Source: Chloroflexota bacterium (GTDB lineage Bacteria; Chloroflexota; Anaerolineae; Promineifilales; Promineifilaceae). From it: a stretch of 41,681 nucleotides of DNA. The stretch spans positions 1 through 41,681 of the forward strand of contig JAJRVV010000032.1 of the NCBI GenBank assembly GCA_024277135.1, in the 5' to 3' direction. The translations under genes and the position numbers were made by a program. The notes below the pieces were generated by a model. That model saw only the letters and a list, made by a program, of their open reading frames with translations, did not search any database and was not told the origin of the DNA. Of the stretch, positions 20,695 through 31,175 are shown piece after piece. The stretch's first letter is position 1. The number at the start of each line of letters is the position of its first letter.

Positions 20695-23064
20695 TTACTC
20701 TTCTTCTTCTGGTTGTAATGGCAGCCGAACAAAAAAGGTGCTGCCTTCACCGGGAACACCGGCGCTTTCCGCCCAAATCTGACCCCCATGCGCTTCGGCG
20801 ACCAATTTACAGAAAGGCAATCCCAATCCGGTGCCCCGCCGCCGCCCTTTACCGGCGAAATCATGGCAGAACATTTTGAACAGCTTATCGAACCCGTCAG
20901 CCGGAATACCCTGTCCAGTATCGCTCACGCCGATCAGAACATTGGGTTTGTCACCATCCGGTTCGTTTTTGGCCCAGAGATGGATACGGCCGTCATCCGG
21001 GGTAAATTTGATGGCGTTATCCACCAGATTGCACAACAAACGGCTTAGCTTGTCCCAATCAGCTGGAATTGGCGGCAAATCTGATGCCACGTCCACAACC
21101 ATCATGATACCCGCTTTCTCTAAAAGCGGCCCAAACCGCTCTTTGGCATCTGACAACACCGATTTCAAAGGCACAGCCTCAATCTGCAATGGCATCTCCC
21201 CACGTTCCAATTTATAAATATCCAACAAATCGTTGATCAGATTGAGCATATGGGCGCCGCTGTTTTGGGCAATTTCCAACATGGGAACGACGCCCTCCAC
21301 TTGCCCTGTTTCCAACCAACCTCGGCTGGTATCTAAACCGCCCATAATGACTGACAGGGGAGAGCGTAAATCATGTACCAGCATGTGGGCCATTTCGGTG
21401 CGGGTTCGCGCCAATTCCAGCTCTTCGGTCACATCCCGGAAAACCAGGAGCCAGCCGCTGATTTCGTTGTCTCGCCCAAATACGGGGACCAGGGTGCGCT
21501 CCACATCTCTTTCGGGGGGGCCACTCATGGTGATTTGCTTTTGATGCCACCGCTCGGTTCCTAACGCCAAGCTGTCGCATGCCGCTTGCATCGTTTCAGG
21601 CGTAAACCCGATCTGAGATAAGATGGTTTCTTCATCTTGAGAGGAGGCCGGCGTCAGCAAGGTTTCACCGCGCAGATCGGCTTGGTCAATTTCCAAACCA
21701 CTGAACTCCAAAAAGGCGCGATTGATCATCAGCGCCTGACAATCGGGGTTGAGGAGCATGATGCCGTCGTTGGTAGTCTGCAAAATCGAATCTAATTCTT
21801 GCACGCGCTGGGCCAATGCCATGTCAGTTTGGTCATAAAGTCGGGCGTTTTGAATGGCAAGGGCCGCCTGGGAAGCGATGGTCATCAATACCCGCTTGTG
21901 GGTTTCGTCATAAATGCCGGGTTCGGTATAGGATTGCACGGCGATGACGCCCAGGGCTTGTTCGCCAGCTAACATGGGCGCACCCAACCAACAGGCCGCT
22001 TGACGGCCGTGTTGTTTGATCCCCAGTTCTTGGCGCAGTGCGTTGAGATCATCTTGTCCCGCCAGCAACGGCCGTCGTGAATGCAACACATATTCGGTGA
22101 ACCCGCTGCCAAATCGGCGCGCGGCCCAATTGGCGCGATGTCCGTCTTCAATGACAAAGGGAAAAGAAACCTCATCCGCGTCAGCGTCATACAACGCCAC
22201 ATAAAACGCCTCAACCGGCATCAACTTCACCACCTGGTCGTGGATCGCCGGAATCAGCTCCGGCAAGCGCAGGCTGGCATTCAGCGCCTGGCCCACTGCC
22301 TGCAGGCTGTTTAGCTCTTGCACGCGCTGTTCCAACCCTTGACGCATAATTTCCAGGCTGTGGGTGATCAAAGAAATGATAACTAACGCCAAACCGAATC
22401 CGCTGAAATAAATCGGCCCTAATTCGATGAAGATGACGGCCGCTAAGACAGCAAAAATAACGGGCGGCAGTTCATACAAGGTAATGAACGGCAATTTTCG
22501 CAGGTATACCAGCAAAATCTCTTTCCCTTCAATCACATAATACCCGGCGGCAAAAATGTAATTATAGAGAAAATAAATCAGTGAAAACAAGGCGAGGGAC
22601 GGCAAGTAAGCAAAGTTGACAGTAGAAAAAAACAATTCCCGACCTAACACACGCATTAAATGCCAGGCAGCAATCAATGAAACGGTGTGCATGACGCTGT
22701 TAACGGCCGTCACCCGAATCAATCCGAATAATGTTTTAGGAGAAGGAATTCTGAGCGGTTCTGACCACCAGCGCCGGATAAATCCATGAATCCAGGCCCC
22801 CACTAAAAGCATCCAACTTGTGGGAACAAGTCCCATCACCAAAACGGCCGCAATGACCACCATTGGGTGCAATGACATGTTGATGCTTCCTAACGAGATG
22901 CCAAAGGTCAAGGTAAAGACGCTGAGGGTTAAGAAGAAGGGGAATGCGGGCAGCCAATCGGCGCGGGTCAAGGGCGTGGTACGGGTGATGAAGATGAGAC
23001 CAGCCAACATAACGGTGTTGGCCGTGATGATGAAGACATCTCGATACCTGTGCCTGTATATCAT
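20695..23064 (-). CDS. Membrane sensor histidine kinase with GAF and PAS domains
   Basis: About 789 residues: an N-terminal block of about seven membrane helices (residues 10-240), a GAF domain (about 265-410; GAPMLAGEQALGVIAVQS), a PAS domain (about 425-540; DGIMLLNPDCQALMINRAFL), a HisKA domain with the phospho-accepting His in MLVHDLRSPLSVI, and an ATPase domain with LVDNAIKFTP, SDTGQGIP and GTGLGLPFCK. It autophosphorylates in response to a membrane or cytosolic cue. No response regulator adjoins it, so its partner is elsewhere. The start is uncertain: an ATG at 23064 or a TTG at 23103, neither with a good ribosome site. The C-terminus is PEEEE. Confidence 0.88.
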   Translation of the reverse strand: MIYRHRYRDVFIITANTVMLAGLIFITRTTPLTRADWLPAFPFFLTLSVFTLTFGISLGSINMSLHPMVVIAAVLVMGLVPTSWMLLVGAWIHGFIRRWWSEPLRIPSPKTLFGLIRVTAVNSVMHTVSLIAAWHLMRVLGRELFFSTVNFAYLPSLALFSLIYFLYNYIFAAGYYVIEGKEILLVYLRKLPFITLYELPPVIFAVLAAVIFIELGPIYFSGFGLALVIISLITHSLEIMRQGLEQRVQELNSLQAVGQALNASLRLPELIPAIHDQVVKLMPVEAFYVALYDADADEVSFPFVIEDGHRANWAARRFGSGFTEYVLHSRRPLLAGQDDLNALRQELGIKQHGRQAACWLGAPMLAGEQALGVIAVQSYTEPGIYDETHKRVLMTIASQAALAIQNARLYDQTDMALAQRVQELDSILQTTNDGIMLLNPDCQALMINRAFLEFSGLEIDQADLRGETLLTPASSQDEETILSQIGFTPETMQAACDSLALGTERWHQKQITMSGPPERDVERTLVPVFGRDNEISGWLLVFRDVTEELELARTRTEMAHMLVHDLRSPLSVIMGGLDTSRGWLETGQVEGVVPMLEIAQNSGAHMLNLINDLLDIYKLERGEMPLQIEAVPLKSVLSDAKERFGPLLEKAGIMMVVDVASDLPPIPADWDKLSRLLCNLVDNAIKFTPDDGRIHLWAKNEPDGDKPNVLIGVSDTGQGIPADGFDKLFKMFCHDFAGKGRRRGTGLGLPFCKLVAEAHGGQIWAESAGVPGEGSTFFVRLPLQPEEEE

Positions 23065-23182
23065 TTCACAATCAATGATACCGTTCGCCGCCAGCGGCTT
23101 CAATAAACCGCTTGTCCTACTGAAAGTGATTATTTTTAAGGAGACACCACGCGCCGCGGCGCACCACGAATGAATGAAAACA

Positions 23183-23790: not shown

Positions 23791-24816
23791 CTACTCTCCT
23801 TTATCATATAGCCAGCAAGCGACACGGTGATCTGGAATTATTTCAATATTAGGTGGTTTCTTAACATCACAAAGCCCTTCAATCATCTCAGGACAACGAG
23901 GATTAAAACGACAACCTAGGGGCGGATTCACCAAGCTCGGTGGTTCTCCATGAGGTATCTCGCGCATCACCAGGGCATTATCAGCATCCGGGTCAGAAGA
24001 TGCTTCCAACAAAGCCAACGTATAAGGATGCTTCGGTTCGTTAAGCAAATCTTTCATCTTAGCGATCTCAATAACTTCGCCAGCATACATCACAAAAACA
24101 TATTCAGAAAAATAACGCACTGTCGACAAATCATGCGTAATATAGATAACCGCTAAATTATGGCTCTCTTGCAAACTACGCAATAAGCGCAAGATTTCGA
24201 CACGCACCGATGCATCCAACATAGATACCGGCTCATCAGCCACCAGAAGCTTTGGCTCCATCACCATAGCCCTGGCAATTACAACACGCTGCTGTTGACC
24301 CCCGCTTAACATATGAGGAAACTTATGCAACACTTCCTCAACCGGCGTCAACTTCACCTCTTTCAAAGTCTTGTGAATGCGCCTCAATCGTTCCCCTTGT
24401 TCCTTGATTCCATTAATGATCAAAGGTTCTTCCAGAATGCGCTGAACCGTCATAAACGGCGGTAAAGCCCCATATGGATCTTGCTGTATATATCCAATTT
24501 TTGCCCGATATAATCGCAGGTCTTCCCCTTTCGTTTCAGTAAGATGCGCATTATCAAAGACAACATCACCTTTAGTAGGCGTGTTTAATCCCATAATCGC
24601 CTTCATAAGACTCGACTTGCCGCAGCCGCTCTCGCCAACACAAGCCATCGCCCCACCCTGCTCCAAATCAAATGTCACACCATCAACAGCACGTACATAC
24701 CCCGCATGACCGAAACCAAAACGCTTCAATTCATACCAAACGTGCAGGTCTTGAATTTGTAAAAGCGGTTGTTCACTCGAGTTACTTCCCTTCAAATCAC
24801 CATTTATGTCACTCAT
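23791..24816 (-). CDS. Oligopeptide-type ABC transporter ATPase (OppF-like)
   Basis: About 341 residues with all ABC motifs: Walker A GESGCGKSS, signature LSGGQQQR, Walker B LLVADEPVSMLD, and the switch His in THD. The C-terminal oligo_HPY segment has the typical Cys pattern (GCRFNPRCPEMIEGLC). It energises import through the two permeases upstream in the operon as partner of the OppD-like ATPase. I prefer the ATG at 24816; the frame extends back to 24873 inside the preceding gene. DNA here is richer in A+T than the flanking regions and lacks the ACGGCCGT octamer. Confidence 0.92.
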   Translation of the reverse strand: MSDINGDLKGSNSSEQPLLQIQDLHVWYELKRFGFGHAGYVRAVDGVTFDLEQGGAMACVGESGCGKSSLMKAIMGLNTPTKGDVVFDNAHLTETKGEDLRLYRAKIGYIQQDPYGALPPFMTVQRILEEPLIINGIKEQGERLRRIHKTLKEVKLTPVEEVLHKFPHMLSGGQQQRVVIARAMVMEPKLLVADEPVSMLDASVRVEILRLLRSLQESHNLAVIYITHDLSTVRYFSEYVFVMYAGEVIEIAKMKDLLNEPKHPYTLALLEASSDPDADNALVMREIPHGEPPSLVNPPLGCRFNPRCPEMIEGLCDVKKPPNIEIIPDHRVACWLYDKGE

Positions 24817-24854
24817 CGTCTTCGTCTCTTCCCTTCGTTTGGTTTTTTGATTTC

Positions 24855-25823
24855 TTAAGCGTACAGCCAACACTTAACCTTACGATCACCATCATAAATA
24901 ATGGTGGGAGGTTCCTCATCACACTTTTCAAAACGTTTCGTACATCGATCTGCAAATCGGCATCCTATCGGCGGATTTAGCAAACTTGGCGGTTGCCCGG
25001 TAATAAATTCCGGCTCCACTGTCTCGCGCAGTCGCGGGACACTCGCCATCAGTTTTTGCGAATATGGGTGTAGCGGATTATTAAAAAACCGGCGCGCATC
25101 ACTGACTTCAACTATTTGACCAGCATACATCACCGCAACATTATCGGCTAGTTCGCTTGACGTTGCAATATCATGCGTGATGAGGATGAAACTGGTTTCT
25201 AAATCCCTCTTCACCTGCTTCATTAAATTCATTATATTCGCCTGAGTTAAAACATCCAGAGCAGATGTTGGTTCATCCAGAATCACCAAATCAGGCAAAG
25301 TAATAAGCGACATTGCCAATGCGGCGCGCTGGCGCATACCCCCACTCAGTTCAAACGCATAACGATGAAGAAAATCAGATGGTATGCCTACATGCTCAAA
25401 CATGCGTAATGCGCTCTTCAACGCTTCTCCCCTACTCAAACCCATATGAACCATAGCCGGTTCCGCCACCTGATCGCCGATACGCATGACCGGATTGAGC
25501 GCGTTCATAGACGCCTGGGGTACCATTGAAATTCTTTTCCAACGTATTTCCTTACGGAAATCCTCGCTGTTATAAGTCATTATATCCTGGCCGTTTAACC
25601 ACACCTCACCATCATATTCCTGGACATTGCGAGGCAAAAGGCGAAGAATTGCTTTGGCTAATGAGCTTTTGCCACAACCCGACTCACCAATAATAACAGT
25701 CGCCTGGTTGCGTGGGAGGTCAAAATCAACACCATCTACGGCCTGAACAGCGCCATTTCGCGTCTTGAAATGCAGTCGTAATCCTTTTACCCTCAAAAGA
25801 TCGTTTTTTGTCGTATCCATCAT
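24855..25823 (-). CDS. Oligopeptide-type ABC transporter ATPase (OppD-like)
   Basis: About 322 residues: Walker A GESGCGKSS, Q-loop MVPQASMNALNPV typical of DppD/OppD, signature LSGGMRQR, Walker B LVILDEPTSALD, and THD. The C-terminal segment GCRFADRCTKRFEKC is the oligo_HPY extension. It pairs with the OppF-like ATPase downstream to form the asymmetric motor. The ATG at 25823 starts 1 nt after the permease stop with GGGAG 7 nt upstream. An upstream frame to 25898 would read from within the permease gene. Confidence 0.93.
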   Translation of the reverse strand: MMDTTKNDLLRVKGLRLHFKTRNGAVQAVDGVDFDLPRNQATVIIGESGCGKSSLAKAILRLLPRNVQEYDGEVWLNGQDIMTYNSEDFRKEIRWKRISMVPQASMNALNPVMRIGDQVAEPAMVHMGLSRGEALKSALRMFEHVGIPSDFLHRYAFELSGGMRQRAALAMSLITLPDLVILDEPTSALDVLTQANIMNLMKQVKRDLETSFILITHDIATSSELADNVAVMYAGQIVEVSDARRFFNNPLHPYSQKLMASVPRLRETVEPEFITGQPPSLLNPPIGCRFADRCTKRFEKCDEEPPTIIYDGDRKVKCWLYA

Positions 25824-25824
25824 C

Positions 25825-27195
25825 TTAAAGCTCCCGTAGTTTAGGGTTAAAAATCCGGTCAAGCGCAAAGCCAACCATGGCAAAACCAAGTCCAGCAATC
25901 ATCAGCAATGCGGCTGGCTCCAATATCCAGTAATAAAAGCCATTGAATAAGGCTCCCTGAGAGCTTGCGTCCTGAATGATTTTACCCCAAGTTGGTAGAA
26001 CTGGATCGCCTAAGCCGAGTACCGCCAATGATGCCTCCAGAAAAACAAACCCGGGTACAAGGGTCACAATTGAGGGGATGAGCAAAGGCAAAATACGCGG
26101 GATCAAATAGCGGAATATGATACGCATATCGCTAGCGCCATACGCTTTAGCCGCATCAATGTAAGGCAGTTCACGCACTTGCAAAAATATCGCCCGATAA
26201 TTTTTAATCCCTAAGCCAAAAATGCTGAATAATACAACAAGCCCCAGCATGAGCCAGATACTACGCGAGTAAAAAGTACCTACCATAATAAGAATAGGTA
26301 AAAGGGGTAGAATGCTGTTAACCTCGGTCAACCTTTGAATGATCGAGTCGAGCCAGCCGCCGTACCAAACGCCAACGGCCGCAATACTCATCGTTGTAAT
26401 GGTCGTACCCAGCGCAGCCAATAAGCCAAAAGCCATCGCTATCGGCGTGCCCCAAAGCAAAGCGACTGACAAATCCCGCCGTTTGTGATCAGTGCCTGCT
26501 ATGCCATGCACCAAACCATAGCTTACAAACGTTGTGTCAACAGTTGCTTCAGGCTCAAACAGCAATGCCGTGATTTCCAATCGATATGTCCCCTTGAGTA
26601 CCTGAACCCCTTCTTGTTCTGGATCATCAAACAACCCCTTTTCAGCCGGAATATCTTCGATCCCAGTCGAACGTTCAAGGCGACGCTGAAGACGGCTGTC
26701 CTGGGAAAACCTAAAGGAGGAAGTGGCTGAAGGAGAAGATGGGGAAAAATCGCCAGCCCGAATCTCACGTCCATCAGGCGTAATCCAAGTCATCTCGATG
26801 AACGGCTGTTTCTCCACATATTGTGATTTAGCAAAAAGGATCAATTCAGGCGGAAATTCATCATAAAGATATTCAAATTCGTAGACAAATTGCACCTCGC
26901 GCGTATCGGCCGATAAGCTCTCATCACTTCTTTCCCCGTCTCCTTCAGCGCTGTCAAAAACAATGGTGGCGGGCAGTTTGGAACTACGAAACCAATTCAG
27001 CCAGACAGGAGCTGCGTTTCTGGGATTTTCAGCCCAGATATCGTCGCCGCCTCGCCAAAGGCGGATAGCTTCGCTGTAAGGAATAGCAATCGGCGTCACC
27101 ACAGATACAATTAACAACAAAGAAATAACCGCTATGCCAATCACGGCCGAAGGGTAGCGGCGTATTTTTTGCAAAGTTTCGGCATATCTATTCAT
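25825..27195 (-). CDS. OppC/DppC-like permease with a large extracytoplasmic insert
   Basis: A 456-residue permease, about 150 residues longer than normal OppC/DppC. TM1 (SAVIGIAVISLLLIVSVVTPI) is followed by about 190 mostly hydrophilic residues (about 45-235) before GTDHKRRDLSVALLWG, which corresponds to the usual GTDxxGRD start of the core. Five more helices follow, with the ATPase-contacting EAA loop IDAAKAYGASDMRIIFRYLIP. The insert is on the outer side and could dock the oversized binding protein. Its ATG shares a base with the stop of the upstream permease (TAATG). Confidence 0.9.
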   Translation of the reverse strand: MNRYAETLQKIRRYPSAVIGIAVISLLLIVSVVTPIAIPYSEAIRLWRGGDDIWAENPRNAAPVWLNWFRSSKLPATIVFDSAEGDGERSDESLSADTREVQFVYEFEYLYDEFPPELILFAKSQYVEKQPFIEMTWITPDGREIRAGDFSPSSPSATSSFRFSQDSRLQRRLERSTGIEDIPAEKGLFDDPEQEGVQVLKGTYRLEITALLFEPEATVDTTFVSYGLVHGIAGTDHKRRDLSVALLWGTPIAMAFGLLAALGTTITTMSIAAVGVWYGGWLDSIIQRLTEVNSILPLLPILIMVGTFYSRSIWLMLGLVVLFSIFGLGIKNYRAIFLQVRELPYIDAAKAYGASDMRIIFRYLIPRILPLLIPSIVTLVPGFVFLEASLAVLGLGDPVLPTWGKIIQDASSQGALFNGFYYWILEPAALLMIAGLGFAMVGFALDRIFNPKLREL

Positions 27196-28343
27196 TACGC
27201 TTTACTCCCTTCACCAACGCGAACGCGCGGGTCAACCAATGCGTAAATAAAGTCTAATAAAAAGACAGTGAACGCCAGCATGTAAGCGTATACAACCGTA
27301 TTGGCCAAAATAACAGGTGTGTCATAAACGCCAATGGCTCGAAAATAAAGTTGGCCAATGCCGGGCCAATTAAACACTGTTTCCAAAATAATAGCGCCCA
27401 GCCACAACGTAATGAGCAAGAGCGCAAAACTGGTGATGATATTAGGCAATGTGGGACGCAGCACATAACGACGCTCAATCATACCGTCAGGCAGCCCTTT
27501 GGCTTTAGCCATCTCCACATAATCTTCGCTGGAATAAATGAGGAAAAAAGTACGCCAATTGTAAGTTGTGATAAAAACTGCGCTGATCAATGTGGCGGTA
27601 ACGGGCAGAATCATATGCTTTAAGAGACTGAGGGCATATCCGAACGGGCTTTCTGGCGGGGGCGCGCTCACCATGCCGCCAAAAGGGAGTATTTGCAGAA
27701 GCCCAGAAAAGATAAGAATGAGAAACAAACCATAGAACCAACCAGGGGCCGCTGAAGTGGGCGCCATGGCCAAAATAAATTTATCGAAGAAACTGCCATA
27801 ACGACGAGACAAATTTAATCCTGAAAAGAGGCTGATAAAAAACAGCAGCAGATTAGCTGTGCCAAACAACACCAATGTAGAGGGCAGCCGCTCCAAAATA
27901 ATGTTGCTTACGCGACGAGAACCGCTATCACTGGTTAAGCCCTCAGAGAAGCCAAGATTTAATGTAAGCGCATTGCTTAAATACCTGAAGCTGCGAAAGA
28001 TAAAAGGTTGGTCGAGTCCATAACGCCGCTCTTCAATGGCTATTCGTTTCTCAATAATAGCATTGCGCTCATCAGGCGAAATTCTTCTTAACTGATCATC
28101 CAGGCTGACTTCTAACGAAACTGCTTCTCGAATCTGACCACGACGTATGTCATCAACATAGCCGCCCATATTGGCAACCAATACGGTGATGTAAACGCCG
28201 GCAACAACGGTCAGAAATAAGGCAAGAATCCGCACCAATGTATAACGGAGCAGTCGGGTCATGGCTTCTGATCTGGCCTTGCGAGATGACGCTTCAATAG
28301 ATTCATCATCAATGTCAATTGTGGACAAGATTTCTTGGCTCAC
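27195..28343 (-). CDS. OppB/DppB-like permease
   Basis: A 382-residue permease of the OppB type with six helices. TM1 (LVRILALFLTVVAGVYITVLVANMGGYV) is followed by an about 60-residue hydrophilic segment (IRRGQIREAVSLEV to DERNAIIEKRIAIEERRYGLD) that precedes the usual RYGLDQP phrase, longer than in standard OppB. The EAA region YVEMAKAKGLPDGMIERRYVLRP is intact. It forms the channel with the downstream OppC-like protein. The GTG at 28343 follows AGAGG by 7 nt. A strong hairpin lies between it and the binding-protein gene. Confidence 0.9.
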   Translation of the reverse strand: MSQEILSTIDIDDESIEASSRKARSEAMTRLLRYTLVRILALFLTVVAGVYITVLVANMGGYVDDIRRGQIREAVSLEVSLDDQLRRISPDERNAIIEKRIAIEERRYGLDQPFIFRSFRYLSNALTLNLGFSEGLTSDSGSRRVSNIILERLPSTLVLFGTANLLLFFISLFSGLNLSRRYGSFFDKFILAMAPTSAAPGWFYGLFLILIFSGLLQILPFGGMVSAPPPESPFGYALSLLKHMILPVTATLISAVFITTYNWRTFFLIYSSEDYVEMAKAKGLPDGMIERRYVLRPTLPNIITSFALLLITLWLGAIILETVFNWPGIGQLYFRAIGVYDTPVILANTVVYAYMLAFTVFLLDFIYALVDPRVRVGEGSKA

Positions 28344-28565: not shown

Positions 28566-31175
28566 CTATGGCGCCGTTACAAATTGGTATTCGGCCAGAG
28601 TTGGCAGGGCTACCAAATTGGAGACGACAACCACATCAAGGCGATTGGAGCCTTCTGCCAGAGCGGCCGTTGTATCAGCGCTTAAAGTAATTGTCCATAG
28701 GCCATCTTCAACGACTTCAGCTTCACCAGTACCAACTTGCGTGCCGGTCGCATCGAAGAGCAGATAAGTGACGCCAGCAATATCGTCTGCCGGGTAAGGG
28801 CCGCCGAAGACATCGACAAAGACATCAAAGGTTGCTTCATTACCAATGGTCACGCGACTGTCGCCATCAACCTCGACTTCTGCGAGGGCGGGGGCGGCAA
28901 AACTAGACCAACGGTCGGCCGCATCGGGATAAGGTGTGTAGCGCGTCAAAATTGCCTGGCCTTCAACAGGGAAGACGCCGGACAAGAAGTAGGGGCCTAC
29001 ACCAAGATAGTAATGACCATAGCGACGGGCAAACTCAGCCAGATTAGCGTACCGAGCCGCAGCTTCTTCGGCCGTAATGTATTGACCCAAGGTTGGTTCG
29101 TAGGGGATAAAGCCTTCTTCGGCGGCAGCAGCCAGTTCTGCAGCCATTACTTCGAGAGAAGGACCAGCGAGCATATTGATGCGCTCGAGTTCATTTGCTT
29201 CAGCTTTGTCGGTTGTGAATGCAAATCCACCGTTAGCGTCACCACGCAGCATAACGGCGTAGTTGTGCCACGCCGCATCACTGGTGTTGAAGTTAGGCCA
29301 CCATGATGAAACGGAGTTCTCGGCGTCCAAAGATGGGCTATCGCTGTAGGTTTCGATTACGAGCGGGTCGGTGGAAATAATGCGCACCCCTTTGAACCCA
29401 GATTGGAACTGATCCAGGGTGGATTCCATAGCTTCATTATAGTAGGGGCTTGCCGGATCGGCGATGTCGAACAGCCAGATCATGCTCATGACGAAGTCAG
29501 CTGTGCTGATGGGGCTGCCATCTTGCCAGGTGATGGTGTCGTACATGTCGGCAGGATAGTAAACGGTGCTCTTCATGACGGCCGTTTGTGTTTCAGTATA
29601 CACTTCGGCAGCGGTGAGGAACACTTGATTCTCAGCATCCCAATCCACCCAGGCGTCGTCGGGCACAACAATTTCAGCCGCGGTCGAAAGGTCAATCCAA
29701 TCGAGCGTCTTATTCATGGGGAAGCCTTCTTCAACCACAATTTCAGCGCGCTCGGCGCGATTTGGAATGCCAAGGCCGGTGTTGGGATCAGAATAGAAAG
29801 CAGGGTCGCCGATACCGCGTTGCACCATCATATCGAACACCCAGTTTGAACCATCAACCGGATTCCAGGGTTCAGTGAAAACACTCGGCAAACCGATGGT
29901 CATAGAACCGCCTACCTGATCAGTAAAGCGAGCCGTCTTGGCCCAGATAGCAGCGCCACTAATACCAGCAGCCAGATCTGTTGTCACAGAAACCTCGTCG
30001 CTAAATGGAACGAGCGTGGTGCGGCTTGTGACCCAAACGCGAGTGGATAGTTCGCCAGCCATTGGCAAAATCTGGCGGATCAAGTCAGCGCGTTCAGCAT
30101 AGTCAGCGAAATCATTATTGAGCAGACGACGGGACAACGCCGTAAACTCTTCGCTTGGCTCAAACACTTGCCAGGACAACCAGGGAACGCTGGGTGTATA
30201 GAAGAAGTCAAAGTTGCCGCCAACATCGCGGGAAATCCCCGTTTGGCTCCAGGCGCCTGTGTACAGGTTCCATTGACATTCGGATGGTTCGGAACCAAAC
30301 CAGATGGGGCTGAGTTCGCTAGAGGTACGTTCGACGCGCTCAATGGTGAATCCCATTTCTTCAAGCTGGTTGGCAACGTAATTGCCAATTTCCAGGCGAG
30401 TGTCTTCGATACGGATAAGGAAAATGAGGGTGACGGGTTCGCCGGCAAACATCCATTTGCCATCTTCCATTGTCGCGCCCAATCCTTCCATTTCAGCGGC
30501 AATTATCTCGTTCGCTTTATCAAAATCGTAAGCATAATAAGCTTCGATCGCGCGAATCTCAGGAGCAAATGCGCCACGATCTGAACCAGCTTCAGCGATG
30601 GTTGTGTATTTGGGCACAGCCAAACCGCCATATAGTTCATCCGCTACAAAGTCACGATCAACGGCCCAGTTCATCGCTTCACGAATTTTCTGGTTGTTGA
30701 ACGGGTTGAGAACGTTCTCGTCGGCACATGCGCCGTTGATGAAGAAAATCTCATCGTAGAGGCCATACTGAGTCCGAGTTTGAATGTTGCCAGAATCAGC
30801 AATGGTCTGCACGGCCGCTTGTCCGCCAATGTCATCAGCATAAATATCAAGGTCGCCAGCAGCCAAACGGGCAATGGCGGCATCCTGGTTCGGCTCTTCA
30901 AGGAAAATGATGGTATCGAGCCAACCACCGGTGCGATCTTCCATTTCCGGTTGAACCTCAACGATTTCAGTGACGACTTCCGTTACCACTTCAGTCACCA
31001 CCTCGGTCACAACCCGTGTCACCTCGACCTCTTCCCCGCCTACTTCCACAATCTCGGTCACAGTTTCAGTTACCACGCGGGTAACTTCAACCGGTTCCGA
31101 CGTGGTCTGGCAAGCCACTAAGACCACCCCGACCATCATCAAGACCACAAACAAGCTAATCCATTTCTTTTTCAT
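28566..31175 (-). CDS. Lipoprotein solute-binding protein (SBP_bac_5) with swapped halves
   Basis: An 869-residue lipoprotein: lipobox VLVAC with Cys22, a Val-Thr-Glu rich linker (about 28-76), then two SBP_bac_5 halves in reversed order. Residues 84-415 match the usual C-terminal half (DAAIARLAAGDLDIYA, then NQKIREAMNWAVDRDFVADELYGG). Residues 422-757 match the usual N-terminal half (GGSMTIGL, ITWQDGSPISTADFVMS, GVGPYFLSG). A last Ig-like domain (763-869) follows. Normal binding proteins are about 500-550 residues with the opposite order. It delivers peptides or similar solutes to the permeases encoded next. The ATG at 31175 has GGAGG upstream; the frame back to 31205 is ignored. It carries the only ACGGCCGT of the operon. 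Confidence 0.88.
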   Translation of the reverse strand: MKKKWISLFVVLMMVGVVLVACQTTSEPVEVTRVVTETVTEIVEVGGEEVEVTRVVTEVVTEVVTEVVTEIVEVQPEMEDRTGGWLDTIIFLEEPNQDAAIARLAAGDLDIYADDIGGQAAVQTIADSGNIQTRTQYGLYDEIFFINGACADENVLNPFNNQKIREAMNWAVDRDFVADELYGGLAVPKYTTIAEAGSDRGAFAPEIRAIEAYYAYDFDKANEIIAAEMEGLGATMEDGKWMFAGEPVTLIFLIRIEDTRLEIGNYVANQLEEMGFTIERVERTSSELSPIWFGSEPSECQWNLYTGAWSQTGISRDVGGNFDFFYTPSVPWLSWQVFEPSEEFTALSRRLLNNDFADYAERADLIRQILPMAGELSTRVWVTSRTTLVPFSDEVSVTTDLAAGISGAAIWAKTARFTDQVGGSMTIGLPSVFTEPWNPVDGSNWVFDMMVQRGIGDPAFYSDPNTGLGIPNRAERAEIVVEEGFPMNKTLDWIDLSTAAEIVVPDDAWVDWDAENQVFLTAAEVYTETQTAVMKSTVYYPADMYDTITWQDGSPISTADFVMSMIWLFDIADPASPYYNEAMESTLDQFQSGFKGVRIISTDPLVIETYSDSPSLDAENSVSSWWPNFNTSDAAWHNYAVMLRGDANGGFAFTTDKAEANELERINMLAGPSLEVMAAELAAAAEEGFIPYEPTLGQYITAEEAAARYANLAEFARRYGHYYLGVGPYFLSGVFPVEGQAILTRYTPYPDAADRWSSFAAPALAEVEVDGDSRVTIGNEATFDVFVDVFGGPYPADDIAGVTYLLFDATGTQVGTGEAEVVEDGLWTITLSADTTAALAEGSNRLDVVVVSNLVALPTLAEYQFVTAP

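Follow-up and report, generated by a model that had tools for sequence, protein, structure and literature searches.

Probable recurrent circular permutation of cluster C substrate-binding lipoproteins in Chloroflexota

Results

The window, a stretch of 41,681 nucleotides from contig JAJRVV010000032.1 of a Chloroflexota bacterium, carries on its reverse strand a gene for an 869-residue substrate-binding protein (SBP), with its ATG at position 31175, its stop codon at 28566-28568 and a GGAGGAG ribosome-binding site directly upstream of the ATG. The lipobox of the product reads LMMVGVVLVAC (Cys22), and the 60-residue linker behind it is a module common to many other lipoproteins of the family. 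Two large segments follow (Table 1). Segment A contains the motifs GGWLDTI at residue 83 and NQKIREAM at residue 161, and segment B contains GGSMTIGL at residue 422, TWQDGSPI at residue 549 and VGPYFLSG at residue 726. The Ig-like tail gives a weak Ca_tandemer match, with a FlgD_ig match in homologue L029, and is missing in some homologues (L113, L117 and L158). The open reading frame, strand, lipobox, low-complexity linker and quoted motifs all lie where the original prediction had placed them, and the Ig-like part that it described after both SBP halves begins at residue 757 and is all-beta in the predicted structure.

Beside this gene lie genes for two permeases and two oligo_HPY ATPases, the gene set of an Opp/Dpp importer. 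The OppC-type permease has an insert of ~190 residues between OppC_N with the first transmembrane segment and the core. Just downstream of the importer operon, and likewise on the reverse strand, lies a gene for a GAF/PAS sensor histidine kinase (20695-23103).

Table 1. Features of the window and of the further permutant classes.
Feature	Position	Strand	Evidence
Type 1 permutant gene, circularly permuted SBP_bac_5 lipoprotein (predicted), 869 aa	28569..31175	-	ORF, Pfam, inverted 7fi3 matches, 22 homologues
Lipoprotein signal peptide and lipobox, residues 1-22 (Cys22)	31110..31175	-	sequence MKKKWISLFVVLMMVGVVLVAC
Low-complexity linker (VTRVVTEVV...), residues 23-82	30930..31109	-	matches confined to query residues ~2-85
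Segment A, residues 83-421, canonical C-terminal half of the SBP fold	29913..30929	-	Pfam 147-349; 7fi3 chain 320-586
Segment B, residues 422-756, canonical N-terminal half	28908..29912	-	7fi3 chain 65-310; one Pfam stretch with segment A after swap
C-terminal Ig-like domain, residues 757-869	28569..28907	-	all-beta in AlphaFold model
OppB-type permease	27195..28343	-	Pfam BPD_transp_1; conserved neighbour
OppC-type permease	25825..27195	-	Pfam OppC_N 6-42, BPD_transp_1 271-454
OppD-type ATPase	24855..25898	-	Pfam ABC_tran and oligo_HPY
OppF-type ATPase	23791..24873	-	Pfam ABC_tran and oligo_HPY
Type 2 permutant, 599 residues	G000:C107:42654-44450 (-); L071:904-2700		profile 62-365 before 2-60
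Type 3 permutants, G082 and G198	L155:5893-7887; L154:2-1819; L159-L178		profile 205-358 before 16-183
Type 4 permutants, G134, G349 and G335	L156:5989-7719; L181; L182		G134 profile 291-366 before 11-284

The window SBP passes the curated SBP_bac_5 (PF00496) cut-off of 32.4 bits with a score of 82.7 bits, and Pfam positions 147-349 match its residues 84-311 (3.5e-23). The halves of the family occur here as inverted blocks and not in the canonical N-to-C order, so we file the protein as a permuted variant rather than as a standard SBP_bac_5 member. A phmmer search of the PDB matched the Thermococcus kodakarensis oligopeptide-binding protein TkOppA (7fi3_A; E 7e-22) in two inverted blocks, query residues 149-329 on chain residues 396-592 and query residues 541-736 on chain residues 99-294. 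The same inversion was obtained with a 23-sequence profile (125 and 68 bits, E 2.8e-54), in which profile positions 75-320 and 490-745 fall on adjoining, complementary parts of the 7fi3 chain, 320-586 and 65-310, respectively. The claim that the usual C-terminal half precedes the usual N-terminal half is thus upheld by Pfam, by the two TkOppA blocks and by 22 aligned homologues, all of which keep the segment order over their whole length.

When the halves were swapped back in silico, the protein matched Pfam in one stretch (27-349, 95.0 bits) and 7fi3 in one stretch (chain 101-591, E 1.6e-22), so that with both references the rotated protein aligns to the canonical family in one piece. Segment A alone scores 75 bits, while segment B alone has no Pfam match. 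Against an HMM of canonical Chloroflexota proteins the N-terminal half reaches only ~6.5 bits and rotation adds little there, since this half is remote; that HMM is too distant for it, which makes TkOppA the better reference, and the proposed permutation of this protein leans mainly on TkOppA.

AlphaFold2, run with 26 sequences, gave a model of the window SBP with a mean pLDDT of 90.7 and a pTM of 0.86 over 794 residues. The protein is confidently predicted as one compact chain; two half-domains with no connection would hardly be expected to reach such values, which point to one fold. Structure prediction, proposed earlier as a check on the permutation, returns a single confident unit and not two binding domains. 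Foldseek, which aligns sequentially only, ranked TkOppA first for this model, followed by many cluster C proteins, with alignments of 310-400 columns and target TM-scores of 0.35-0.51; partial coverage is expected where only one part of a permuted chain aligns in order.

Proteins with this arrangement, here called type 1, were detected in 38 of 400 sampled Chloroflexota genomes (profile search, E<=1e-30), nearly all of the matches spanning the profile end to end, and the search for the same order elsewhere in the phylum, which the original prediction had suggested, was thus successful. Canonical TkOppA-like proteins were not found in these 400 genomes by profile search at the same threshold. 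The relatives that carry names come from metagenome-assembled genomes of Anaerolineae and Promineifilum, and one genome-contig scan returned three Anaerolineae records only. Two members, L033 and L066, are archaeal-looking in style, as we take it. Searches of plasmids gave only weak partial matches, mostly to proteobacterial plasmids and one to a Thermomicrobium plasmid, and searches of viral contigs gave no matches.

The gene order SBP-OppB-OppC-OppD-OppF was seen in all 11 type 1 operons for which enough flanking sequence was fetched, two of them with a second SBP copy before OppB, and the OppC insert is kept in most type 1 operons. At L114 other sequence lies between the SBP gene and the opp genes, and no opp genes were seen in the 15 kb L117 region. 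Duplicate permuted SBP genes stand ahead of one permease set at L113 (76-2466 and 3466-5697), L112 and L122. A lone SBP N-terminal half of 280 residues, with no C-terminal half alongside, is located at L157 (5033-5872) and ends near the type 1 cut.

Further classes of permutant were also recovered. In the genome from which the window comes (G000), a Pfam scan detected canonical SBP_bac_5 proteins and, besides the window SBP, one further permuted protein, type 2 (Table 1), whose gene adjoins its own OppB/OppC genes; type 2 occurs in 56 of the 400 genomes. Scanning ten further genomes with Pfam detected type 3 (42 of 400 genomes), which is cut before the 'DVRVRQAM' helix, and type 4 (four genomes), which carries Tat-like (RRDF) lipoprotein signals. 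Types 3 and 4 are encoded by intact reading frames, with OppB genes behind them. A second scan covered twelve genomes and gave type 2 again, with no new cut point among the matches listed. Counted from match lists, 103 of the 400 genomes have at least one of the four classes, and three (G082, G198 and G423) have types 1, 2 and 3 together. In the type 4 protein of G275 (L180:1306-2943), the signal region is apparently frame-changed, through sequencing error or decay.

The Pfam cut position is 147 for type 1 and about 61, 203 and 288 for types 2, 3 and 4. By our mapping, the cut points appear to lie in loops that separate secondary-structure elements in the AlphaFold models. From what is known of OppA and DppA, we take the type 1 cut to be in a surface loop and not in the hinge strands; the loop would belong to lobe I, where the usual termini are also found, whereas the original prediction put the lipid anchor on the hinge side. 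The type 2 protein was modelled with a pLDDT of 85.3 and a pTM of 0.81, and its Foldseek alignments to DppA-type proteins (386-397 columns, target TM-score up to 0.69) agree with the size of the in-order part.

All four types were subjected to a rotation test with an HMM built from canonical proteins only. Unrotated, types 2-4 each matched as two out-of-order domains; after rotation each matched as one, with scores rising from 221.4+52.9 to 280.5 bits (type 2), from 110.5+58.1 to 177.6 bits (type 3) and from 158.6+421.5 to 593.6 bits (type 4). In a tree of rotated and canonical proteins each type forms a single, fully supported clade; those of types 2, 3 and 4 nest among canonical sequences on long branches, their exact sister groups being unsure. 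The different cut points indicate separate permutation events.

Judged from sequence comparison, the type 4 permutation is recent. For the type 4 proteins of G134, G335 and G349, canonical relatives occur in further genomes that belong to the same family and, with G184, even to the same genus. Once rotated, the G134 protein and its canonical counterpart in G103 share 60.4% identity in an almost gapless alignment of 507 positions; three residues are lacking where the chain was cut, and the former termini are joined directly. The operons correspond, OppB identity ranging from 73% (G103) to 80% (G349) with OppC, OppD and OppF following, and both canonical and permuted proteins carry lipobox signals. 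Since orthologous operons contain either form, permutation seems to have affected the receptor and left the permease unchanged.

Discussion

The sequence profiles, the complementary TkOppA matches, the AlphaFold model and the conserved segment order all bear out the original proposal of a natural circular permutation. We put at roughly 95% the probability that the window SBP is a circularly permuted substrate receptor of an Opp/Dpp-type importer with a complete cluster C fold and a presumed role in transport. The canonical C-terminus and the mature canonical N-terminus would have become linked, and the new ends would have opened behind the 'NPxYW' strand, in a surface loop. Like TkOppA and DppA, the permuted chain would adopt the usual two-lobed cluster C shape, and the lipid-tethered receptor would close on a small-oligomer ligand and deliver it to the OppBCDF proteins encoded next door. 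Ligand binding and transport are expected by analogy, probably of oligopeptides; we think of peptides first, since the solved TkOppA structure contains a pentapeptide.

The permutation probably arose by duplication, in-frame fusion and truncation. A tandem duplication would have been followed by an in-frame fusion with loss of the inner signal peptide, and then by truncation of both ends. Permuted SBP genes have neighbouring copies in G342, G378 and G437, which is the arrangement that permutation by duplication needs. The tandem duplication and loss suggested in the original prediction is therefore plausible, but a tandem-duplicated intermediate was not found among the permuted SBPs. Fission and fusion offer a possible alternative origin, with which a lone SBP N-terminal half gene in G082 is consistent; both models of permutation have been described (PMC3320104).

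Whether the new topology was itself favoured is a separate matter. An adaptive permutation, in which the relocated lipid anchor alters how receptor and permease meet, perhaps together with the OppC insert, seems to us rather unlikely. The ~190-residue insert goes with type 1, whereas the OppC proteins of type 2 operons have no insert and align to the core part only, and an advantage in tethering has been published as an idea for the permuted Treponema pallidum protein Tp0684 (PMC4990184). However, permuted and canonical type 4 proteins appear to serve orthologous permeases and both are anchored through a lipobox, so that a permuted chain is not required for tethering as such, and four different cut points argue against one favoured geometry. 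The earlier suggestion that permutation may change docking on the permeases likewise finds no support, given that both type 4 forms adjoin orthologous permeases.

It is highly improbable that the window SBP is instead a chimera, fused from two incomplete SBP pieces of different ancestry. Its halves do match canonical models unequally, only one of them being found by Pfam on its own, but they match adjoining, complementary parts of a single 7fi3 chain, the model is one confident unit, and the protein recurs in permuted order across 38 genomes. The chance that misassembly or gene calling created the order is negligible: the genome behind the window is fragmented (251 contigs), but independent genomes, among them the single-contig G082, refute the artefact, as their 22 aligned homologues show the same order and the permuted genes are intact reading frames within a conserved operon.

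Among known proteins, TkOppA (PDB 7FI3) is the best match of the window SBP in both sequence and structure, and the alignment covers nearly all of both halves; the TkOppA order is canonical, with the N-terminal half first, and that of the window SBP is reversed. Canonical OppA, DppA, AppA and NikA share with it the Pfam family and the OppBCDF-type operon but differ in the order of the halves and in being without its extra Ig-like domain and long anchor linker. Types 2, 3 and 4 are likewise permuted SBP_bac_5 lipoproteins beside Opp-type permeases, with other cut points and in independent clades. A natural circularly permuted SBP has been described in Tp0684 (MglB-2), for which a crystal structure and ligand binding were reported, and for which Brautigam et al. 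proposed a 'Cluster Bc' and a permuted topology that could aid tethering (PMC4990184). Tp0684 is a cluster B glucose-binding protein and represents one permuted class, whereas the Chloroflexota SBPs belong to cluster C and form four. We considered Cluster Bc membership for the window SBP and rejected it, as its Pfam and PDB matches all belong to cluster C/SBP_bac_5. Our searches of the open-access literature turned up no account of a permuted SBP_bac_5 or cluster C protein, and ABC transporters go unmentioned in CIRPIN. Permutation of SBPs was thus known for cluster B, and its recurrence in cluster C is apparently new.

Cluster C SBPs have very probably been permuted at least four independent times in Chloroflexota, in four loops, and at least once in place beside an orthologous permease; canonical and permuted forms are apparently interchangeable, and the fold would be unusually tolerant of, or selected for, moved termini. 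SBP_bac_5 is among the largest families of nutrient receptors and is usually assumed to be fixed in topology, and Pfam/NCBIfam annotation masks permuted members as partial or ordinary matches. That a single phylum holds four independent permutations, spread over roughly a quarter of the sampled genomes, suggests that topology in these receptors is evolutionarily fluid. The matched type 4 pair (60% identical, with orthologous permeases) amounts to a natural experiment on the order of protein parts, and makes it testable how chain order and anchor place affect folding, ligand capture and permease docking. The natural cut sites could also guide the engineering of permuted binding proteins as biosensors.

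Permutants are also found joined to other domains. A type 1 permutant of L117 (4980-8225, reverse strand) lies behind a matrixin-like (Peptidase_M10) domain in one fusion of 1082 residues. Type 2 permutants lie behind a complete SBP_bac_3 domain at L079 (1501-3954, reverse strand) and behind a Peripla_BP_6 domain at L081 (1489-3822, reverse strand), each in one open frame, so that these two fusions place two different binding proteins in a single chain.
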